IMG/VR virus record: IMGVR_UViG_3300032333_000158
Location: 1-20,255 of that record
Source: a virus
DNA: 20,255 bases
Reading direction: 5' to 3' (one strand)
Positions 3,395 to 11,129 of this stretch are shown here, one piece after another. The notes beneath the pieces are model-generated. The model did not search any database, was not told the DNA's origin, and was given only the letters and a program-made list of their open reading frames with translations. Numbering within the stretch: the first letter of the stretch is position 1; the number at the start of each line of letters is the position of its first letter. A program made the position numbers and the translations under genes.

Positions 3395-4010
3395 TGATTT
3401 AGAGCGTAGGTTTTTTTGCGCTGAAGATTTGGCGATAGAAACAAGAGAGGCTGACAGCAATAAAACTGTATTGCGCGGCCATGCCGCTGTATTCAATCAA
3501 CTGTCTGTTGACCTTGGAGGCTTCCGCGAACAAATTGCGCCGGGAGCTTTTCTAGATGCTATCAATCAAGATGACATTCGCGCACTATTCAATCATGACC
3601 CTAACATGATTCTCGGCCGCAAGCAGTCCGGCACATTAAGATTGCAGGAAGACTCTCATGGCCTGCTGGTTGAGCTAGACATCCCTGATACAAATGCAGG
3701 ACGCGATTTGATTACCAGTATTAAACGCGGTGACGTTAATCAAATGTCCTTCGGCTTTAGAGTCAAGCCAGGCGGTCAGGACTGGGCGAAGGATGAAGAA
3801 GGAAGGATGATAAGAACGCTTAAGAAAGTTGGTTTGTTGGATGTATCGCCAGTTACTTTTCCAGCTTATCCGCAAACTGACATTGCTGTACGTGAGATGA
3901 GAAGTTACTTAGATGCAATTAATCAAACTAATGTAGAAGACACACATAAAAATAAAAATAAAATGCTCTTAAAGCTGAAGCTTGCGGGGCGTGTTTTGTC
4001 CACGGTCTAA
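3375..4010 (+). CDS. Prohead protease, HK97 family (U35/S78)
   Basis: Maturation serine protease that digests the scaffold part of the capsid protein inside the prohead. The protein is 211 residues, starting at an ATG with GGAG 9 nt upstream inside the portal gene. Family motifs are VLRGHAAVFNQLS (about 32-44), REQIAPGAFLDAI (about 51-63), FNHDPNMILGR with the putative catalytic His at 74, and VNQMSFGFRV with the putative nucleophile Ser at 125. VGLLDVSPVTFPAYPQT is also typical. The last about 25 residues (lysine/asparagine-rich, then LLKLKLAG) lie beyond the conserved fold, and their DNA is A-rich. The stop codon lies in the loop of a terminator-like hairpin. Confidence 0.93.
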   Translation: MSNKIASDLERRFFCAEDLAIETREADSNKTVLRGHAAVFNQLSVDLGGFREQIAPGAFLDAINQDDIRALFNHDPNMILGRKQSGTLRLQEDSHGLLVELDIPDTNAGRDLITSIKRGDVNQMSFGFRVKPGGQDWAKDEEGRMIRTLKKVGLLDVSPVTFPAYPQTDIAVREMRSYLDAINQTNVEDTHKNKNKMLLKLKLAGRVLSTV

Positions 4011-4025
4011 ATGATCGTGTTTTTT
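4001..4025 (+). terminator. Terminator-like hairpin before the capsid gene
   Basis: CACGGTC (4001-4007) can pair with GATCGTG (4013-4019), giving seven base pairs including one G-U, around a TAAAT loop, followed directly by six T (4020-4025). The protease stop codon TAA is in the loop. This has the form of an intrinsic terminator but the stem is short, so it is probably leaky. It could instead be an mRNA end or processing structure that isolates the capsid message. Confidence 0.5.
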
Positions 4026-4044
4026 AGTCAGAAGGAAAATAAAA

Positions 4045-5316
4045 ATGAATAACAGCAACATTAAAAAACTGCAGGACGAGCACGCACGCCTTGTAACAGA
4101 AGCGCGTAGTTTGCTCGAGGGTGATGTATCAAAAGAAAACGAAGAGCGTTTTGATAAGTTGATGGCTGATGCTGATGGCATCGAAGCTCGGGTTAAGCGT
4201 GAGCAACGAGCAGAAGCAGCAGAAAAAGCGATGGTCGGCAAGATTCATCAAGCTGCTGAGAAGAAAGGCATTACTCGTTCAGAAGCAGAAGGGCGAGAAG
4301 TTGAGTATAGAGATGCGTTTAGGAACTGGGCTAAGTTCGGCGAAGCTGGATTAAATGACGAATCACGAAGCATTCTTTCCTCACGTCAAGTAAATATTGA
4401 TGGTTCTGAGTTACGTGCGCAGTCAGTATCGGGCGGTTCGCCTGTTGGCATTTACGGCGGTTACACTGTGCCACCCGAAATGGTTATGAACATCGAGGAA
4501 GCATTAAAGTCATATAGTGGCGTGATGCAAATCGCTGATGAGTTCACGACTACAAGCGGTGTTGATTTGCCATGGCCGAACACCAATGACACATCGAACA
4601 AAGGTGCGATCCTCGGTGAAAATCAGCCAGTCGATGAACAAGACATTACGTTCTCGACAACCACATTCAAATCATTTTTGTACTACTCGAAATTGATTCG
4701 ATGCAGTTATCAATTGTTGCAAGATTCGGGATTCAATTTAGAAGATCACATTACACGTGTTGCTGCTGAGCGAATCGGCCGCAAACTAAATGAAGACTTC
4801 ACCACCGGCGTTGGTGTAACCACACCGCTTGGCGTCGTTAGTGGCTCTACGCTTGGCTATACGGGATTAACTCAACTCTCTATAACTTATGATGCGCTAG
4901 TACAACTAGAACACTCTGTAGACCCAGCTTATCGCTCAAGCCCAAAAGCTGCCTGGATGTTTAATGATCAAACATTAAAAGCTCTTCGCTTGATGAAAGA
5001 CTCAACAGGCCGTCCCCTTATCTGGGGACAAGACGGAAACTTAGGGCAAGGCGCTGTACCTTCGCTTTTTGGTAAGCCTTATTATATCAATCAAGATATG
5101 GCTTCACTTGGCGCAGCAAGCAAAAGCGTTTTGTTTGGTGATTTCAGTAAGTACAAAATCCGCAAGGCTCGCGAGTATGTAATGGTTCGCCTCAATGAGC
5201 GTTACGCAGACCGCTTGCAAGTTGGTTGGTTTATGTATTGCCGATTTGATGGACGTTTAATCGATGCCGGTACGCATCCATTAAAGTACTTACAACAAGC
5301 AGCATCTTCGCCTTAA
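4045..5316 (+). CDS. Major capsid protein, HK97 fold
   Basis: Main shell protein, 423 residues, starting at an ATG with AGAAGGAAA upstream. Residues about 5-75 are charged and strongly helical (EHARLVTEARSLLEG, ERFDKLMADADGIEARVKRE), which fits the scaffold-like delta domain removed by the upstream protease. The shell domain appears to begin around 125-135, near SVSGGSPVG; I infer cleavage there but cannot see the exact site. Family signatures are GGYTVPPEMVMNIEEAL, AILGENQPVDEQDITFS, YYSKLIRCSYQLLQDS, AAERIGRKLNEDFTTG, AAWMFNDQTLKALRLMKD, GKPYYINQDMASLG and LFGDFSKYKIRKAREYVMVR. The gene is flanked by terminator-like hairpins on both sides, unlike its densely overlapping neighbours. Confidence 0.96.
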   Translation: MNNSNIKKLQDEHARLVTEARSLLEGDVSKENEERFDKLMADADGIEARVKREQRAEAAEKAMVGKIHQAAEKKGITRSEAEGREVEYRDAFRNWAKFGEAGLNDESRSILSSRQVNIDGSELRAQSVSGGSPVGIYGGYTVPPEMVMNIEEALKSYSGVMQIADEFTTTSGVDLPWPNTNDTSNKGAILGENQPVDEQDITFSTTTFKSFLYYSKLIRCSYQLLQDSGFNLEDHITRVAAERIGRKLNEDFTTGVGVTTPLGVVSGSTLGYTGLTQLSITYDALVQLEHSVDPAYRSSPKAAWMFNDQTLKALRLMKDSTGRPLIWGQDGNLGQGAVPSLFGKPYYINQDMASLGAASKSVLFGDFSKYKIRKAREYVMVRLNERYADRLQVGWFMYCRFDGRLIDAGTHPLKYLQQAASSP

Positions 5317-5380: not shown

Positions 5381-5623
5381 ATGAAAATACTAAGATTTAC
5401 TGAATCAGTAGCGGGCTTAGATTTTAGCTACAACATCGGGCAGGTCGCTTTAGTCAAAGATTCTTTAGCCAAAGATTTCTTGCGCGGCAAATGTGCAATT
5501 CAGGTTGAGCAAGACGGAGAGGTAGAAGAAGCAACAACAAATAGTTTGCCCGGCTCTGAGGTGTCGGCTTTAGTAAATACGAAAAGTAAGCGTAGATATA
5601 CTAAAAAAACCTTGGCGCAATGA
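5381..5623 (+). CDS. Small head-region protein, first copy (upstream part of a possible frameshift fusion)
   Basis: Protein of 80 residues with a clear TAGGAG 8 nt before its ATG. I do not recognise a named family. It begins MKILRFTESVAGLDFSYNIG, then a segment ending KDSLAKDFLRGKCAIQVEQ, and then an acidic to basic linker ending SKRRYTKKTLAQ. It resembles the protein at 6221 (same MKI start, a G...V....A.D..R...A pattern, same length), so the two are probably paralogues. Small proteins of this type are commonly encoded just after the capsid gene. Five codons before its stop it crosses a run of seven A (5603-5609), where another frame carrying a GT42-like domain begins. It may therefore exist both alone and as the N-terminus of a fusion of about 280 residues. 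Confidence 0.75.
   Translation: MKILRFTESVAGLDFSYNIGQVALVKDSLAKDFLRGKCAIQVEQDGEVEEATTNSLPGSEVSALVNTKSKRRYTKKTLAQ
5603..5609 (+). promoter_or_regulatory. Candidate slippage site (A7) joining 5381 to the GT42-like frame
   Basis: The sequence reads ACT AAA AAA ACC in the frame of the upstream gene. A +1 shift of Lys-tRNA from 5606-5608 to 5607-5609 keeps perfect AAA pairing and continues CCT TGG CGC into the enzyme frame; a -2 shift would give one more Lys. Equivalently, six or nine A in the DNA or mRNA would fuse the frames. No stimulatory structure was identified. This is inferred from frame geometry and the position of conserved motifs. Confidence 0.45.
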
Positions 5624-5654
5624 TATCGTTTGTTGCATCGCTACCGGCCCATCT

Positions 5655-6224
5655 TTGACCGTTGAAGATGTTGAGTACGTTAAAAACAAATGCAAGATAG
5701 TTGCAGTAAATAACGCTTACAAAATAGCGCCGTTTGCCGATGCGCTGGTGGCTTTAGATACGGACTGGTGGGCTACGAATTGGAAAGACGAAGAGCTAAG
5801 AAATTTTAAAGGTTTAAAGTTTGCAACTGACCCTGATGTGCGTGACAGATTTGGCGCGCACTGGGTGCATGGCGTGATAAGGAATGGTTTATCGACTGAC
5901 TGGGATAATGTAGCCGTGGGCGCCGACTCAGGTTACTATGCGCTTGCAATAGCTGTGCTTATGGGGAGCACAAAAATAATCATGCTGGGCTATGACATGG
6001 GACATGCAAGTGACGGTAAAACTCATTTCTTTGGCGATCATCCTAGCAACTTACGTAACTGTAGTCCGTATGACTTATTTATTGAAAGGTATGAAACGAT
6101 ACCTACTTGGTGCGGTGAAAACGGTGTGCAGATTTTTAACAGCACGAGGCAAACAAGATTAAATTGTTTTAATCGTGCAAACGTTAGAGATGCTTATTCA
6201 AATTTAATAGGTAACTTCAAATGA
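5655..6224 (+). CDS. GT42/DUF115-like glycosyltransferase domain, first copy
   Basis: The part downstream of the first possible start (TTG at 5655) is 189 residues, but the true coding frame is open from 5577. Upstream codons read KKPWRNDIVCCIATGPSL, and ATGPSL is the nucleotide-sugar-binding loop expected at the N-terminus of GT42 sialyltransferase-like and DUF115/MptE-like proteins. Residues counted from the TTG show KIVAVNNAYKIAPFADALVALDTDWW (14-39, given in pieces: VNNAY, ALDTDWW), then DSGYYALAIAVLMGSTKIIM (91-110) and LGYDMG, matching the SG..A..IA...G...I.L.G.D pattern of GT42 enzymes, and HFFGDHP. The TTG has no Shine-Dalgarno and would cut off GPSL, so a fusion to the 5381 protein is more likely. 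The donor and acceptor sugars are unknown. Confidence 0.72.
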   Translation: MTVEDVEYVKNKCKIVAVNNAYKIAPFADALVALDTDWWATNWKDEELRNFKGLKFATDPDVRDRFGAHWVHGVIRNGLSTDWDNVAVGADSGYYALAIAVLMGSTKIIMLGYDMGHASDGKTHFFGDHPSNLRNCSPYDLFIERYETIPTWCGENGVQIFNSTRQTRLNCFNRANVRDAYSNLIGNFK

Positions 6225-6478
6225 AAATAAAAATCATTCGTGATTTCGTAAGCGCTGAGACTGGCGGTAGAAATATTAAAGCGGGCGAAACTTTAGAAGT
6301 CAGCAACGATTATGCAAATGATCTTGTTAGATTCGGCATTGCCGTTGTGTTTAAGCAAGAAAAAAAAACGGCAGAAGTAAAGCCAGAGTTCTTGGCAAGT
6401 GGGAAAAAGCCGCGATCATCGGCACGGGGCACAGTGCGAAAAATGCTAGGACTGAAGAGCTTAGAAGAGAAGGAATAA
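6221..6478 (+). CDS. Small head-region protein, second copy (upstream part of a possible frameshift fusion)
   Basis: Protein of 85 residues; its ATG overlaps the previous stop (ATGA). The first about 47 residues (MKIKIIRDFVSAETG, NIKAGETLEVSNDYANDLVR, FGIAVVFKQ) look like a compact beta-rich domain and resemble the start of the protein at 5381. At codons 47-49 the gene runs through nine A (6360-6368). Beyond this the zero frame continues for 36 basic, low-complexity residues, while the -1 frame carries the conserved start of a GT42-like domain. The tail after the A run may therefore only be what is made when no frameshift occurs. I cannot name a family. A role as a head-associated or carrier domain is inferred from position only. 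Confidence 0.72.
   Translation: MKIKIIRDFVSAETGGRNIKAGETLEVSNDYANDLVRFGIAVVFKQEKKTAEVKPEFLASGKKPRSSARGTVRKMLGLKSLEEKE
6361..6367 (+). promoter_or_regulatory. Candidate -1 frameshift site A_AAA_AAA (within A9)
   Basis: In the frame of the 6221 gene the codons are GAA AAA AAA ACG. The heptamer A_AAA_AAA fits the X_XXY_YYZ rule for -1 slippage, and a -1 shift continues AAC GGC AGA straight into the enzyme frame that encodes IIGTGHSA. The full A run is 6360-6368, so transcriptional slippage to ten A would do the same. A weak stem GCCAG/TTGGC (6382-6386 with 6392-6396) lies about 14 nt downstream. This is inferred from frame geometry. Confidence 0.55.
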
Positions 6479-6507
6479 AAATAGTTTGCGTTAATGATGC
6501 TGTTAAT

Positions 6508-6960
6508 TTGTTTGATAGCTATGATTTGCACTATGCCGCTGATTTAGAATATTGGGTTAAATATTTCAGCGTACACAACATTGATAATTTAAGTAAGCGC
6601 TGGACTTGCAACGATATAGCCGCACACGTGTATGGCATTAATCATGTTTCTGTTGTTCAGCAAGATGTATTCTCAAAACAAAATAATTGTGTTTCGTCAG
6701 GCGGTAATAGTGCGTTCCAAGCTTTTAATCTGTGTTTACATTTCGGCGTAAAAGATTTTTATTTGTTTGGCTTAGATATGGGTGGCGGTCATTTTTTTGG
6801 TGAGCGCTCAGGTGATTTTAAATCAGCGAATAAAACAGATTACGAAAGATGGGCCATTAATTTCAATTTTGCAATCGAGCAATATCAAGAAGAATTAAAA
6901 GTATATAACTGTTCTGCGCCATCATTACTCAGGGGGATGAAGTGCGAGCGTTTTGTTTAA
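6508..6960 (+). CDS. GT42/DUF115-like glycosyltransferase domain, second copy
   Basis: The first possible start (TTG 6508) gives 150 residues, but the frame is open from 6355, and the upstream codons encode GKWEKAAIIGTGHSA and then GIKIVCVNDAV, the conserved N-terminal half of the fold. No ATG, GTG or TTG exists in that extension and the TTG has no Shine-Dalgarno. Downstream are YAADLEYW (residues about 9-16), SSGGNSAFQAFNLCLHFGVK (about 63-82), DFYLFGLDMGGGHFFGE, and a C-terminal VYNCSAPSLLRGM. The SG..A...A...G.K..YLFG.DM core and the late N.S...L element match GT42 sialyltransferase-like proteins and mirror the copy at 5655. It is probably made as a fusion of about 246 residues with the 6221 protein. 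Substrates cannot be inferred. Confidence 0.72.
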   Translation: MFDSYDLHYAADLEYWVKYFSVHNIDNLSKRWTCNDIAAHVYGINHVSVVQQDVFSKQNNCVSSGGNSAFQAFNLCLHFGVKDFYLFGLDMGGGHFFGERSGDFKSANKTDYERWAINFNFAIEQYQEELKVYNCSAPSLLRGMKCERFV

Positions 6961-7718
6961 TAAAAGAAGAACCGCATTACAGAAGAGAAGCCTTTGTTTC
7001 AGGTTTGCAAAAACTTGGTTACAAAGTTTTCTTTGATGTCGATTTGCGCGACATTAGAAAAGATGACTTGCTTGTGATCTGGAATAGATACGGACACTTT
7101 GACGAATTCGCAAAGCTCTATGAAGCAAAAGGCTGCAAAGTCATAGTTGTTGAGAACGGATATCTAGGCGTTCAATACAATGATAAAGTTTGGTACTCGA
7201 TAGCATTAAGTCACCATAATGGCTATGGAAAATATAGATTAATTGCGGATAGATTTTTTGATCAAAATCTAAAATTTTCAGAATGGAAAACAACGGGAAG
7301 AGAAGTCGTTGTTTTAGCCCAGCGTGGCATCGGTGAGAAATCAATCGCAAGCCCTGACAACTGGGAATACTACGCTAAAGATTTGATCGAACATAAGACT
7401 GGCTTACCTGTTCGCATTCGACAGCACCCAGGGCTTACTTACGCGATCGATCTCGCTGAGGATTTGAAGAACGCAAAGTTTGCGGTTACGTGGGGGTCAG
7501 GTGCAGGAATAAAAGCCATCACGCTCGGCGTTCCCGTAGTGCACGGTTTGCAAAACTGGATAGCGAAAGATTCATCCCTGCATATCTCAGAATTTGATAT
7601 GAAAAAATTATTCAGAGGCGATAGAACAAAAACATTCTGCAATGTTTTTTCAGCTATGTGGAATCTGCAAGAAATATACGATGCGCGGCCATTCGTGGAG
7701 CTGTTGAATGAAAACTGA
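6942..7718 (+). CDS. KpsS/KpsC-like capsule-type glycosyltransferase, first copy
   Basis: Protein of 258 residues starting at GTG 6942, with AGGGGGA at 6931-6937; it overlaps the previous gene by 19 nt. The N-terminus (EAFVSGLQKLGYKVFFD, LLVIWNRYGHFDEFA, KVIVVENGYLG) and the C-terminal half (VLAQRGIGEKSIASP, RIRQHPGL near 158-165, FAVTWGSGAGIKAITLGVPV at about 180-199) have the GT-B-like layout of the KpsS/KpsC capsule polysaccharide transferases and related CDP-glycerol/Kdo-type enzymes. These add sugars at the cytoplasmic side during surface-polysaccharide synthesis. The specific sugar is unknown. It is paralogous in layout to the gene at 9089 and opens the first of two transferase-methyltransferase-glycosyltransferase trios. 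Confidence 0.72.
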   Translation: MRAFCLIKEEPHYRREAFVSGLQKLGYKVFFDVDLRDIRKDDLLVIWNRYGHFDEFAKLYEAKGCKVIVVENGYLGVQYNDKVWYSIALSHHNGYGKYRLIADRFFDQNLKFSEWKTTGREVVVLAQRGIGEKSIASPDNWEYYAKDLIEHKTGLPVRIRQHPGLTYAIDLAEDLKNAKFAVTWGSGAGIKAITLGVPVVHGLQNWIAKDSSLHISEFDMKKLFRGDRTKTFCNVFSAMWNLQEIYDARPFVELLNEN

Positions 7719-8253
7719 TTGTGATGATTTTTATAATAGTTTCGTGAAGCCAAAGCCAGGTCAAGCCTTGGTTGTTGGCTCTAAAATTTATCCAGGACGC
7801 ACAGACCAGCGCAAGAAGTTCGAGCAGTGTATCGGCTTAGACATGCTGGAAGGTGACGGGGTTGATCTGGTTTGGGATTTAGAAAACCCGCTACCGAAGC
7901 AATACTATAATTTCTCGCATGTTGAATGCTGTTCTGTTTTAGAGCATGCGCGCCGTCCATGGTTAGTTGCGAAGAACATAGAGAATTCTTTACGCAACGG
8001 CGGAACGTTGTTTGTTTCTGTGCCGTTCGTTTGGCGAATTCATGCTTACCCAAATGATTATTTCAGATTCACACCTGAAGGACTGAAAAGTCTTTTTGAT
8101 AAAATAACATTTTCAGAAATACGGATGATCGTCAAAGGTAAGATGTTTAATTACCTTGATGCGCCATCATTCACAATAGACGATGACGGCAAAGAAGCTG
8201 TTACTTTTGAACGATGCTTAGTGATGGGGTTCGGTAAAAAATGCGGATCCTAA
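7708..8253 (+). CDS. Class I SAM-dependent methyltransferase, first copy
   Basis: Protein of 181 residues; the ATG at 7708 follows GGAG and overlaps the previous stop. Rossmann-type methyltransferase elements are in order: a degenerate motif I strand (ALVVGSKIYPG, residues 20-30), motif II IGLDMLEGDGVDLVWDLENP (42-61, D45), SVLEHARRPW (76-85), LRNGGTLFVSVPFVWRIHA (95-113) and NDYFRFTPEGLKSLF (116-130). This is the Methyltransf_11 pattern seen in sugar or small-molecule O-methyltransferases of polysaccharide clusters. Motif I lacks the usual G.G.G, which is notable but occurs in this subgroup. Flanked by two transferases, it most likely methylates a sugar; a DNA or protein target is less likely because no such recognition domain is present. 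Confidence 0.8.
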   Translation: MKTDCDDFYNSFVKPKPGQALVVGSKIYPGRTDQRKKFEQCIGLDMLEGDGVDLVWDLENPLPKQYYNFSHVECCSVLEHARRPWLVAKNIENSLRNGGTLFVSVPFVWRIHAYPNDYFRFTPEGLKSLFDKITFSEIRMIVKGKMFNYLDAPSFTIDDDGKEAVTFERCLVMGFGKKCGS

Positions 8254-9092
8254 TTACCGGCAAACCCAACCAAGGCTCGTGGAAAATAAGAGCCGAACAG
8301 CTAGGCGGAGCAATATCGGCGAAGGTTATACCCGATGCGAGAATTGAAGACATCAGAAAATGCGATGTCGTCATCGTAGTTAAAAACTTCACAGTAGGTT
8401 TGCTAGATAGAATACGCTCGCTTAAAAAGCCAATCGTTTGGGATTGCGTGGACTTCTGGCCGCAGCCGCTTGGCAATACTTGGGATCGTGAGAAGTGCTT
8501 GCAGTTTTTACGCAAGAAACTATCAGGCGTTGGCCCGCAGATGGCTATAGCTGCAACAAAGCAGATGGCCGACGACATGAAAGAATGCAGGCTACCAATT
8601 AAGATTGGTTATCTAAAACACCACGCAAGACCAGACCAAAGAAAGAACGAGATACGCGACCAAATCAAAGTGATAGGTTATGAGGGCTCGCCTCGTTATT
8701 TAGATTTTTGGCGCGAGCACATCGATGACATATGCGAGCAGGCTAAATACAGATTCGTGATTAACCCAGATCATTTGGCTGATGTCGATGTGTGCCTTGC
8801 ATTGCGCGGCGGTGAGTGGGACGGATACGCAACGAGGAATTGGAAATCTAACGTTAAGCTCGCCAACATGCATGACACTGGAACGCCAGGAATACTTGGG
8901 CCTGAGGCTGGCTACTTAGAAAACCGCACGGGCGCAGAGTACCTAGTATCTGACCCAAGGCATTTAAAGTATGCGATGAAGTGGCTAGAACCAAGGGAAG
9001 TCAGACAAGAAATTAGCGAAAGGTTTTTATCTGTTGATACAAGCTTGGAATCTGTAGCAAAAGAATATTTAAAAATACTGAGCAGCTTATGA
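8241..9092 (+). CDS. GT-B-like glycosyltransferase
   Basis: Protein of 283 residues from ATG 8241, overlapping the methyltransferase by 13 nt. It starts MRILITGKPNQGSWKIRAEQ, a first strand and loop as in GT-B enzymes, followed by CDVVIVVKNF, KKPIVWDCVDFWPQPLG (62-78) and IAATKQMADDM (103-113). The second half has IKVIGYEGSPRYLDFW (142-157), VDVCLALRGG, then NVKLANMHDTGTPGILGPEA (204-223), equivalent to the donor-binding K..N....G.P.I.......E region of GT4-like enzymes. It probably transfers a sugar from an activated donor; donor and acceptor are unknown. The stop overlaps the next start (ATGA), so it is cotranslated with its neighbours. Confidence 0.65.
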   Translation: MRILITGKPNQGSWKIRAEQLGGAISAKVIPDARIEDIRKCDVVIVVKNFTVGLLDRIRSLKKPIVWDCVDFWPQPLGNTWDREKCLQFLRKKLSGVGPQMAIAATKQMADDMKECRLPIKIGYLKHHARPDQRKNEIRDQIKVIGYEGSPRYLDFWREHIDDICEQAKYRFVINPDHLADVDVCLALRGGEWDGYATRNWKSNVKLANMHDTGTPGILGPEAGYLENRTGAEYLVSDPRHLKYAMKWLEPREVRQEISERFLSVDTSLESVAKEYLKILSSL

Positions 9093-9943
9093 TTGAAGTC
9101 GAGATGTTAATCAACGAGAACACTAGAAAGCGCGGCGATATCATGCTTCGCTCGCTTGCATGTTCTGCGCAAGAGAACGGCATAACGTGCAAGATAACTA
9201 AAAAGTATTCGAGCAAGTTAAAAAATATAATGCTCTGGGGTGTCGGTGATCACGATAGAAATTTAATTTTCTTAGATCACATAAAAAACGGCGGGGATGC
9301 GTTTTGCTGGGATATGGGCTACTGGCATTCTCGCTCGGGCTCAGATGTTAGCAACGCTTATAATAGATTCTCAAAAAATCATTTCCATCCGCAAGCTTTA
9401 TTGCTCGATTTAGAACTAAAGGAAGGCTACAAAGACAGATTCGACTTGCATGATTCGCTAGTTTTTAGAGATGTCTATGATGAGAATGGCCCGATAATTT
9501 TGGTTGGGAATGGGCCTAAAACGTGCGCGCACTTGGGAATAAACAGGGGTTCTTGGGAGGCCAAAGCCTTGGCGAGAATCGTAGAAAAGTTTGGCAAAAA
9601 AAAGAAAATAATATTTAGGCCGAAACCTAACAACGACTACGAAAGTTTAGACGGAGTGACCGTTGATCAGCTTAGCTCTATTGATGATCTGATGTGCGGC
9701 GCATCGCTTGTTGTATGCCGCCACTCTAACGTTGCGGTGGATGCAATCAGAAACGGTATAGCGGTTAGCTGTGAAGATGGCGCGGCCAATGCTGTATATA
9801 ATGACGACTTATCAAACAAGCCGATAAGTCTTGATATTGCAAAAGATTTTCTAGCCAAGCTTGCGTGGTTTAATTACTCTCAGGTACAGGGTGCAACAGG
9901 GGTTTTTTGGAAGTTCGCTATAGAGCATGGGGTGATTTCATGA
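9089..9943 (+). CDS. KpsS-like capsule-type glycosyltransferase, second copy
   Basis: Protein of 284 residues from ATG 9089, overlapping the previous stop. Elements are NIMLWGVGDHDRN (46-58), AFCWDMGYWHSRSG (71-84), IILVGNGPKT (136-145), KKIIFRPKP (172-180) and CRHSNVAVDAIRNGIAVSCE (210-229). The R.KP followed by C.HSN...DAI..GI.V matches the donor-binding half of KpsS/capsule-type GT-B enzymes and parallels QHPGL and TWGSGAG...ITLGVPV in the protein at 6942, though the two have diverged strongly. It contains eight A at 9596-9603 (coding KKKK) with its reading frame intact, a useful control for the A-run frameshifts at 5603 and 6360. It opens the second trio. Confidence 0.65.
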   Translation: MIEVEMLINENTRKRGDIMLRSLACSAQENGITCKITKKYSSKLKNIMLWGVGDHDRNLIFLDHIKNGGDAFCWDMGYWHSRSGSDVSNAYNRFSKNHFHPQALLLDLELKEGYKDRFDLHDSLVFRDVYDENGPIILVGNGPKTCAHLGINRGSWEAKALARIVEKFGKKKKIIFRPKPNNDYESLDGVTVDQLSSIDDLMCGASLVVCRHSNVAVDAIRNGIAVSCEDGAANAVYNDDLSNKPISLDIAKDFLAKLAWFNYSQVQGATGVFWKFAIEHGVIS

Positions 9944-10431
9944 GACTAAATTTAGGATGCGGGCGCAAGGTTTTAGATGGCTGGTTCAACATAGATATTT
10001 CAAGATCGGATTTGGCGACTAGAGACCCAGAATTATTTTGCGATTTAAAGAAATTAAAACTTGCTGATAACGTCGCAGACGAAGCAATGGCGATACATGT
10101 CATCGAACACTTTTACGAATGGGAAGTTATTCCGCTGCTAAAAGAGTGGCTAAGAGTTTTAAAGCCTGGCGCAATGCTAGCGATTGAGTGCCCCGACGTC
10201 ATGAAGTCAGCTAAAAATTTAGTTGACGGTACGGCGTTTCAAGAAAGCATGTGGGGCTTGTACGGCGACCCGCGTCACTGCGATGAATACATGGTGCATC
10301 GTTGGGGCTGGACACCTGAGACGCTCACAGAGTATTTGAAAGACGCAGGATTTAGAAAAATAAAATCTTGTGATCCGCAATGGCATGGCAAGCGAGTGCA
10401 CAGGGATATGAGGCTGGAGGCTTACAAATGA
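9940..10431 (+). CDS. Class I SAM-dependent methyltransferase, second copy
   Basis: Protein of 163 residues. I choose ATG 9940, which overlaps the previous stop (ATGA) and is preceded by GGGGTGA; an upstream in-frame ATG at 9907 would only add 11 residues unlike the family. Motif I RLNLGCGRK (2-10), WFNIDIS (15-21), AIHVIEHF (51-58), EWLRVLKPGAMLAIECPD (69-86), and a C-terminal WTPETLTEYLKDAGFRKIK segment give a complete small Methyltransf_11-type enzyme. Methylation of a glycan or its precursor is inferred from the neighbours. It is not obviously closer to the methyltransferase at 7708 than two random members of the superfamily would be, so it may be an independent acquisition. Confidence 0.85.
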   Translation: MRLNLGCGRKVLDGWFNIDISRSDLATRDPELFCDLKKLKLADNVADEAMAIHVIEHFYEWEVIPLLKEWLRVLKPGAMLAIECPDVMKSAKNLVDGTAFQESMWGLYGDPRHCDEYMVHRWGWTPETLTEYLKDAGFRKIKSCDPQWHGKRVHRDMRLEAYK

Positions 10432-11129
10432 AAATCTATATCGGCTACGATGAAAGAGAAAAAGAGGCGTATTCAGTAGCTAGAAAATCACTCGAAAAAT
10501 ACTCAAGCGCTCGGCATGAAGTTGTAGCGCTTGATGAGCAAAACTTAAGAAAGAGCGGATTACTATCTAGGAATGTAGATAAGCGTGATAAAAAATACGA
10601 TTTAATTAGCAACGCTTATTGCTCGACCGACTTTGCAAACTCGAGGTTTCTGACTCCCATACTTGCACAAAGCGGTTGGGCTTTATTTGTAGACTGTGAT
10701 GTTCTATTCCTCGATGACGTTAGCAAAATAATACCTGACGCTTTGGCTAATAATCCGGGCCACGCTAAAGCTGTCTACGTCGTGAAGCATGACCACGTGC
10801 CGGATAAGCTGCAAAAGATGGATAACCAAATGCAAGTGAAATACTCGCGCAAGAATTGGTCTAGCGTGATGCTATTTAACTGCGATCATAAAGCTAATAA
10901 ACGACTATCATTGAGAGACGTCAACGAAAGAAGCGGCCTTGAGTTGCACCAATTCTATTGGCTCTCAGATGATGAAATCGGCGGCTTGCCGCATGGCTGG
11001 AATTGGCTTGTCGATGTACATAAAAAACCTGAAAATTTGAAGCTGGCACACTATACTTTAGGCGGCCCCTGGTTTGAGGGCTACGAATCAGAGCATAACA
11101 AGTTGTGGTTGGATCACAAAAATGAATGA
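10428..11129 (+). CDS. GT-A glycosyltransferase, GT8-like
   Basis: Protein of 233 residues from ATG 10428, with GGAGG at 10416-10420; it overlaps the previous stop. The start MKIYIGYDEREKEAYSVARK is the nucleotide-binding strand seen in GT8-like enzymes. STDFANSRFLTPILAQSGWA (66-85) precedes LFVDCDVLFLDD (86-97), whose D.D (89-91) should bind the divalent metal and sugar nucleotide. YSRKNWSSVMLFNCDH (139-154) and LAHYTLGGPWFEGY (206-219) complete the fold, the latter in the place of the HxxGxxKPW element of GT8. This protein type is common in phage and host polysaccharide loci. It is the last cassette gene, and its 3' end overlaps the connector gene by 8 nt. Confidence 0.85.
   Translation: MKIYIGYDEREKEAYSVARKSLEKYSSARHEVVALDEQNLRKSGLLSRNVDKRDKKYDLISNAYCSTDFANSRFLTPILAQSGWALFVDCDVLFLDDVSKIIPDALANNPGHAKAVYVVKHDHVPDKLQKMDNQMQVKYSRKNWSSVMLFNCDHKANKRLSLRDVNERSGLELHQFYWLSDDEIGGLPHGWNWLVDVHKKPENLKLAHYTLGGPWFEGYESEHNKLWLDHKNE

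Follow-up and report, generated by a model that had tools for sequence, protein, structure and literature searches.

Putative programmed frameshifting to a GT42/Maf-like glycosyltransferase domain behind the capsid gene of tailed phages

Several phage virion proteins are known to acquire a C-terminal domain by a change of reading frame, including the Ig-like domains of phage T3 and of Lactobacillus phage A2, gene 10 of phage T7, and proteins of the Listeria phages PSA, A118 and A500 (PMC5009743). In the tail assembly chaperone family (G/GT), which is represented in lambda and other phages, −1, −2 and +1 shifts all occur, the −2 shift being that of phage Mu (PMC5009743).

Here, we are discussing a locus from a 20,255-nucleotide stretch of viral DNA (“the window”; IMG/VR record IMGVR_UViG_3300032333_000158), at which programmed −1 frameshifting would produce, as a minority product, a small head-module protein carrying a glycosyltransferase (GT). 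To judge from sequence, the probability of this reading is roughly 80%, with the first of two tandem units in the window (unit 1) constituting an exception in shift polarity. As in the frameshift-appended virion domains, a fraction of the protein would gain a C-terminal domain by a −1 or +1 shift, the direction of which may vary among relatives. In contrast to those systems, the appended domain is predicted to have a glycosyltransferase fold and not an Ig-like one, the base is a small ORF behind the capsid gene that resembles the N-terminal domain of ribosomal protein L9 (NTL9) rather than a capsid or tail protein, and there is no start codon for the domain on its own. With the G/GT system, the locus has in common a conserved frameshift across overlapping ORFs in a morphogenesis operon of tailed phages; however, the proteins are different, and the site is located behind the major capsid gene instead of between the major tail protein and the tape measure.

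In the openly licensed literature, no description of a frameshift that appends a GT was found—recoding databases, for instance, may hold one—and the main text of the PRFect paper mentions neither a sialyltransferase nor a glycosyltransferase (PMC10885494). That this is an undescribed and widespread frameshift of tailed phages, by which a virion or assembly intermediate bears its own GT and adjacent paralogous cassettes operate with opposite polarities (+1/−2 and −1), is a tentative and rather doubtful proposition. Many tailed phages, including the laboratory phage D3 of Pseudomonas, would have a conserved programmed frameshift in their head module. Provided that the fusion is synthesised and packaged, a catalytic and not only a binding domain would be dosed onto a component of the phage head by frameshifting, which would offer a clue as to how phages bring about the glycosylation of their virions.

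Tandem cassettes behind the major capsid gene

The coordinates of the relevant features are compiled in Table 1. Unit 1 is directly followed by a second, divergent cassette of the same arrangement (unit 2, 6221–6960), which was absent from the preliminary description of this DNA.

Table 1. Features of the two cassettes and their surroundings in the window.
Feature	Position	Strand	Basis
Gene for an HK97-type major capsid protein, immediately preceding unit 1	4045..5316	+	tblastn matches to major capsid proteins annotated in phages
Unit 1 small ORF (80 aa), 0-frame product with NTL9/DUF7210-like N-terminal domain and linker	5381..5623	+	ORF list; small-domain HMM E=4e-14 (the sequence itself is part of the seed alignment)
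Unit 1 GT42/Maf-like glycosyltransferase frame (domain 5610-6221)	5577..6224	+	Startless before motif; phrog_4603 E=4.7e-36; fold model and structure comparison
Unit 1 shift site, A7 tract, 0-frame ACT AAA AAA ACC; +1 or −2 as sequenced	5603..5609	+	Sequence; homologous A8 in L037/L153 and L155
GPSL motif of unit 1	5646..5657	+	Sequence; TTG 5655 (start of the ORF finder) is the Leu codon of the motif
Unit 2 small ORF (85 aa), ATGA overlap with the stop of the unit 1 GT	6221..6478	+	ORF list; phrog_2616 E=4.9e-10; structure model
GT42/Maf-like frame of unit 2, in −1 relation to its small ORF; shifted translation would enter it at 6367	6355..6960	+	phrog_4603 E=8.9e-19
Unit 2 slippery heptamer A AAA AAA within A9 (6360-6368), −1 shift	6361..6367	+	Sequence; register of the small ORF
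Additional ORFs that separate the GT units from the head-tail connector region, two of them methyltransferase-like	6942..11129	+	Several without assigned family

The GT frame of unit 1, which begins with IRKVSVDILKKPWRNDIVCCIATGPSLTVEDVEY..., contains no ATG, GTG or TTG ahead of the GPSL motif. This had already been reported in the preliminary description, together with the lack of a Shine-Dalgarno sequence at TTG 5655; on re-reading, the coordinates hold, and nothing resembling such a sequence is discernible by eye ahead of this TTG. An AGGAG precedes the ATG of the small ORF. The further proposal that the stretch upstream of 5655 is real coding sequence is corroborated by an AlphaFold2 model of the GT domain, calculated from 5610 (pLDDT 90, pTM 0.89), which places the first β-strand (residues 6–10) and the GPSL loop next to it in exactly this stretch; hence, it belongs to the modelled GT fold. 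The joining of the small ORF to the GT frame at the A7 tract by a +1 or −2 shift, as originally described, stands likewise.

The modelled fold of the unit 1 GT is GT42/Maf-like, with an N-terminal GxGPSL nucleotide loop; the predicted activity would be glycosyl transfer from a CMP-sugar. Foldseek alone returned no confident match for the model; later structural comparison revealed similarity to the Maf protein 5mu5 (Z 15.6, rmsd 3.7 over 182) and to the Campylobacter sialyltransferase CstII (1ro8; Z 11.1, rmsd 3.5 over 168), besides the MptE-like HPPK 8sd5 (Z 10.4 over 142). At the sequence level, the GT profile reaches CstII weakly (E 0.005), a Pfam MptE-like match remains below the cut-off (28 vs 34.6 bits), and both GTs of the window match phrog_4603, annotated as alpha-2,3-sialyltransferase. 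The GPSL loop is shared with CstII and Maf; in contrast to them, the GT of the window is shorter (~200 aa), is only 12–18% identical, and would be fused via a frame change.

In unit 2, residues 1–45 of the modelled small protein are ordered and followed by a disordered linker. The downstream GT frame lies at −1, overlaps the upstream ORF, and is devoid of any start codon before the motif (Gly codon 6427), and the heptamer is in the 0-frame register of the small ORF. A single-sequence scan with the unit 2 GT yielded no relatives in viral contigs and three weak phage matches.

In the arrangement that we propose, each tandem unit would be a single gene spread over two frames. In the 0-frame, it would yield a small protein, encoded right after the capsid gene and composed of a 45-residue NTL9/DUF7210-like domain and a disordered basic linker. 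At the slippery run in the linker, some ribosomes would change frame, resulting in a fusion with the C-terminal GT42/Maf-like glycosyltransferase, which would be obtainable in no other way. In the family, this would be a −1 shift on an X XXY YYZ heptamer, a pattern that the A AAA AAA of unit 2 fits; in unit 1, the same design would be present at the homologous spot, with A7 in place of the A8 of a related locus (L037), implying +1 or −2 as sequenced.

Frame relation and slippery heptamers in the family

GT loci were gathered by scans that returned 22 and 80 loci from viral contigs and 34 from genomes, supplemented by annotated phages; pooling all 21 GTs made the profile too diverse for scanning, and a tighter set worked. 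Among 124 distinct loci that were classified, 42—unit 2 and 41 further ones—have a GT at −1 that is startless before the motif, with the motif covered by the small ORF. In 75 loci, the GT has some start, and seven belong to other classes, including unit 1 of the window.

An HMM of the small domain detected this domain directly upstream of the GT in 39 loci at −1 (35 of them startless, the other four having a start codon at some point of the GT frame), in one locus at +1/−2 (unit 1), and in none in-frame; these counts are not independent of the HMM, because it was built from 15 of the loci that it later scored, and several of the loci are closely related to one another. In a later-fetched set of 47 new distinct loci, all eight startless GTs with a small domain were again at −1, and three GTs were in +1/−2 relation, all of them with a start. 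In loci without a detected small domain, the GT mostly possesses its own start (64 loci in the HMM-scored set and 31 in the later one). Altogether, startless GTs that are directly preceded by an NTL9-like small domain are almost always at −1 (about 45 loci), with unit 1 as the one at +1/−2 and none in-frame.

In five loci (L006, L010, L013, L016 and L025), the GT's own start is close to, or overlaps, the stop of the upstream ORF; frame-change fusion and separate, coupled genes thus alternate within one family. The loci L002–L005 contain a second GT in another frame (~4512–5138 in L003 coordinates), which overlaps the end of the first and has only TTG or GTG as candidate starts. In L041 (2446–2697), a startless GT is preceded by an apparent leader (ATG 2446) in +1/−2 relation, which resembles that of L042; it was rejected as another +1 case, since no small domain was found there and the locus may be a short-leader GT affected by an indel.

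After dereplication at 80% identity, 30 overlapping loci were searched for slippery heptamers in the stretch that extends from where the GT frame opens to the motif. Of these loci, 26 have one or more X XXY YYZ heptamers in register with the 0-frame, as opposed to eight and seven in the other registers, and 2000 codon shuffles gave a mean of 7.8 and a maximum of 17 loci; in the scanned stretch of the remaining four, no canonical heptamer was found. Per position, in-register heptamers are more than four times as frequent in this stretch (0.032) as upstream of it and after the motif (0.007), and they recur at defined offsets according to their kind, i.e., A AAC CCT or C CCA AAC at −87, A AAA AAC at −63, and A AAA AAG at −27. 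In the held-out later set, seven of the eight startless small-domain loci contain one.

The position at which the coding frame switches was followed within clusters of related loci. In cluster A (eight sequences), the variable codon position is position 3 of the 0-frame up to about −63 and position 3 of the −1 frame thereafter, with a maximum-likelihood breakpoint at −64 (support −72 to −63) and the heptamer A AAA AAC at −63. The breakpoint of cluster B is at −72 (support −91 to −71) with a heptamer at −87, and that of cluster D at −32 (support −38 to −18) with a heptamer at −27, some of these intervals adjoining the heptamer rather than covering it. In these three clusters, the wobble breakpoint moves along with the heptamer; cluster E is a poorer fit, its breakpoint at −40 not matching its varied heptamer positions. 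A search for close relatives of the window that would be suitable for this comparison returned none; the switch is shown in clusters A, B and D.

Just 3′ of its A AAA AAC, cluster A has a stable, conserved stem-loop with one compensatory pair. As a general feature of the family, a stimulatory structure is not supported, given that cluster A alone stands out clearly; in neither unit of the window was significant downstream RNA structure seen (z −0.5 and −0.1).

Alternative readings and the unit 1 shift site

For the family and for unit 2, programmed −1 frameshifting is the best-supported reading. We infer that the ribosome is the slipping agent; polymerase slippage, which can occur at runs of nine A or T (PMC5009743), could contribute in A9-type tracts. 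The GT might, instead, be a separate protein with an internal start, either TTG 5655 or some non-standard codon, used through translational coupling, as would be in line with more than half of the family GTs having some start, partly in ATGA-type overlaps, and with an in-frame GTG 66 nt ahead of the Gly codon in phage D3. However, this TTG is the Leu codon of GPSL; therefore, a start there would drop G-P-S and cut the first strand together with the GPSL loop from the predicted fold, and the ATG at 5620 is out of the GT frame. Moreover, the constraint on the GT frame starts near the slip site, and ahead of the motif, ATG, GTG and TTG are all absent from the GT frame in 42 distinct loci. On the missing starts and the frame counts, separate initiation was rejected as a general explanation, and we consider it unlikely overall. 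Still more improbable is a phase-variable tract, the length changes of which would switch the fusion on and off. Both A7 and A9 are homopolymeric, in keeping with such a tract, but the relatives with A6–A9, as well as those with A AAC CCT, C CCA AAC or G GGA AAA, are all at −1, and since not a single relative with the small domain is in-frame, phase variation is disfavoured as a general explanation. From the three possibilities raised in the preliminary description—a programmed shift, a phase-variable tract or an indel—the programmed shift has emerged as strongly supported for the architecture of the family and for unit 2.

Within the preferred reading of programmed frameshifting, the A7 tract of unit 1 calls for an explanation of its own, and a real +1/−2 site or transcriptional slippage, on the one hand, and the loss of one base, on the other, are nearly balanced. 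In L037, the GT of which is 42% identical to that of unit 1, ACT plus A8 is situated exactly 36 nt before the Gly codon, and unit 1 has ACT plus A7 at the identical distance; with a single A less, a −1 site becomes a +1/−2 site. An A8 at the homologous spot, at this same 36-nt distance, is found in L037/L153 and in L155, i.e., in contigs from two metagenomes, with L155 from the second one. The tract length in related phages, to which the preliminary description had pointed as a check, could thereby be read in these relatives, while a search for near-identical records in which to read the A7 itself found none. At close to even odds, unit 1 is an ordinary ancestral −1 site that is one base short, either by a sequencing or assembly error or by natural deletion. 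This is also in agreement with all other startless loci with the small domain requiring −1 and none of them +1 or −2, which speaks against a genuine +1/−2 shift. On the other side, the remaining runs of at least seven A or T within long ORFs of the window leave those ORFs intact by our reading, so that homopolymer miscalls are not general there, and switches of direction within one conserved phage frameshift family are on record (PMC5009743). With a chance somewhat below even, unit 1 may truly shift by +1 or −2 on the ribosome, or RNA polymerase may slip on A7, with −1 being used in unit 2. The tract would permit re-pairing of the cognate Lys-tRNA at +1 as well as at −2, as deduced from the nucleotide sequence, the homopolymers elsewhere in the window look sound, and phage tail genes do switch direction, with −2 used by phage Mu (PMC5009743); a stimulatory structure, however, was not seen at unit 1.

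Genomic neighbourhood, annotation and possible role

The major capsid gene is located directly upstream in 37 of the 39 startless loci with enough flank; that of the window matches, e.g., Rhizobium phage RHph_Y3_1 (37% over 98%, tblastn). The small protein consists of an ordered 45-residue domain, similar to NTL9 and to DUF7210 phage proteins, and of a disordered basic linker, which contains the slip site. Frequently, the 0-frame small proteins end in a basic, AT-hook-like RGRP/GRP tail (L024 2840–3127, L037 2211–2513, L060 2048–2308, L082 2316–2756, L112 1657–1914), which is sometimes encoded beyond the GT motif, suggesting that the short product has a function of its own.

According to our proposal, most copies of the small protein would act in or on the head, whereas the minority fusion would bring the enzyme to the virion or to its assembly site, where, together with neighbouring glycan genes, it would glycosylate a structural protein. 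Recruitment to the virion or assembly site and glycosylation of a structural protein are likely on the basis of the gene order, the Maf-like fold, the label of the PAJU2 homologue, and the ORFs behind the GTs, which, from their context, probably form a glycan module. This PAJU2 homologue is a separate gene with its own ATG, for which the depositors chose the label “structural protein”.

Pseudomonas phage D3 (orf6.5/orf7) and the Psp6 counterparts share with the window the gene order and the position of the GPSL motif inside the small ORF; their overlap is −1, as in unit 2 and in the family. The small ORF and the GT are annotated there as separate ORFs, or the GT is omitted. In D3-type records, the annotated GT begins either behind the motif or at an internal GTG, or the GT is missing, and none of the records examined annotates a join of both; at such loci, gene callers yield a truncated, mis-started or no GT. 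As a rule for annotation, a phrog_4603 match behind a capsid gene should be checked for a −1 join with a small ORF. In D3, a connector gene is found directly behind the GT, where the window has its run of further ORFs. In Rhizobium phage 16-3 (L144 2498–3764), the major head protein itself is annotated with a ribosomal slip and two products, and a small ORF behind the head gene (3812–4042) aligns with the small domain, with no GT after it.
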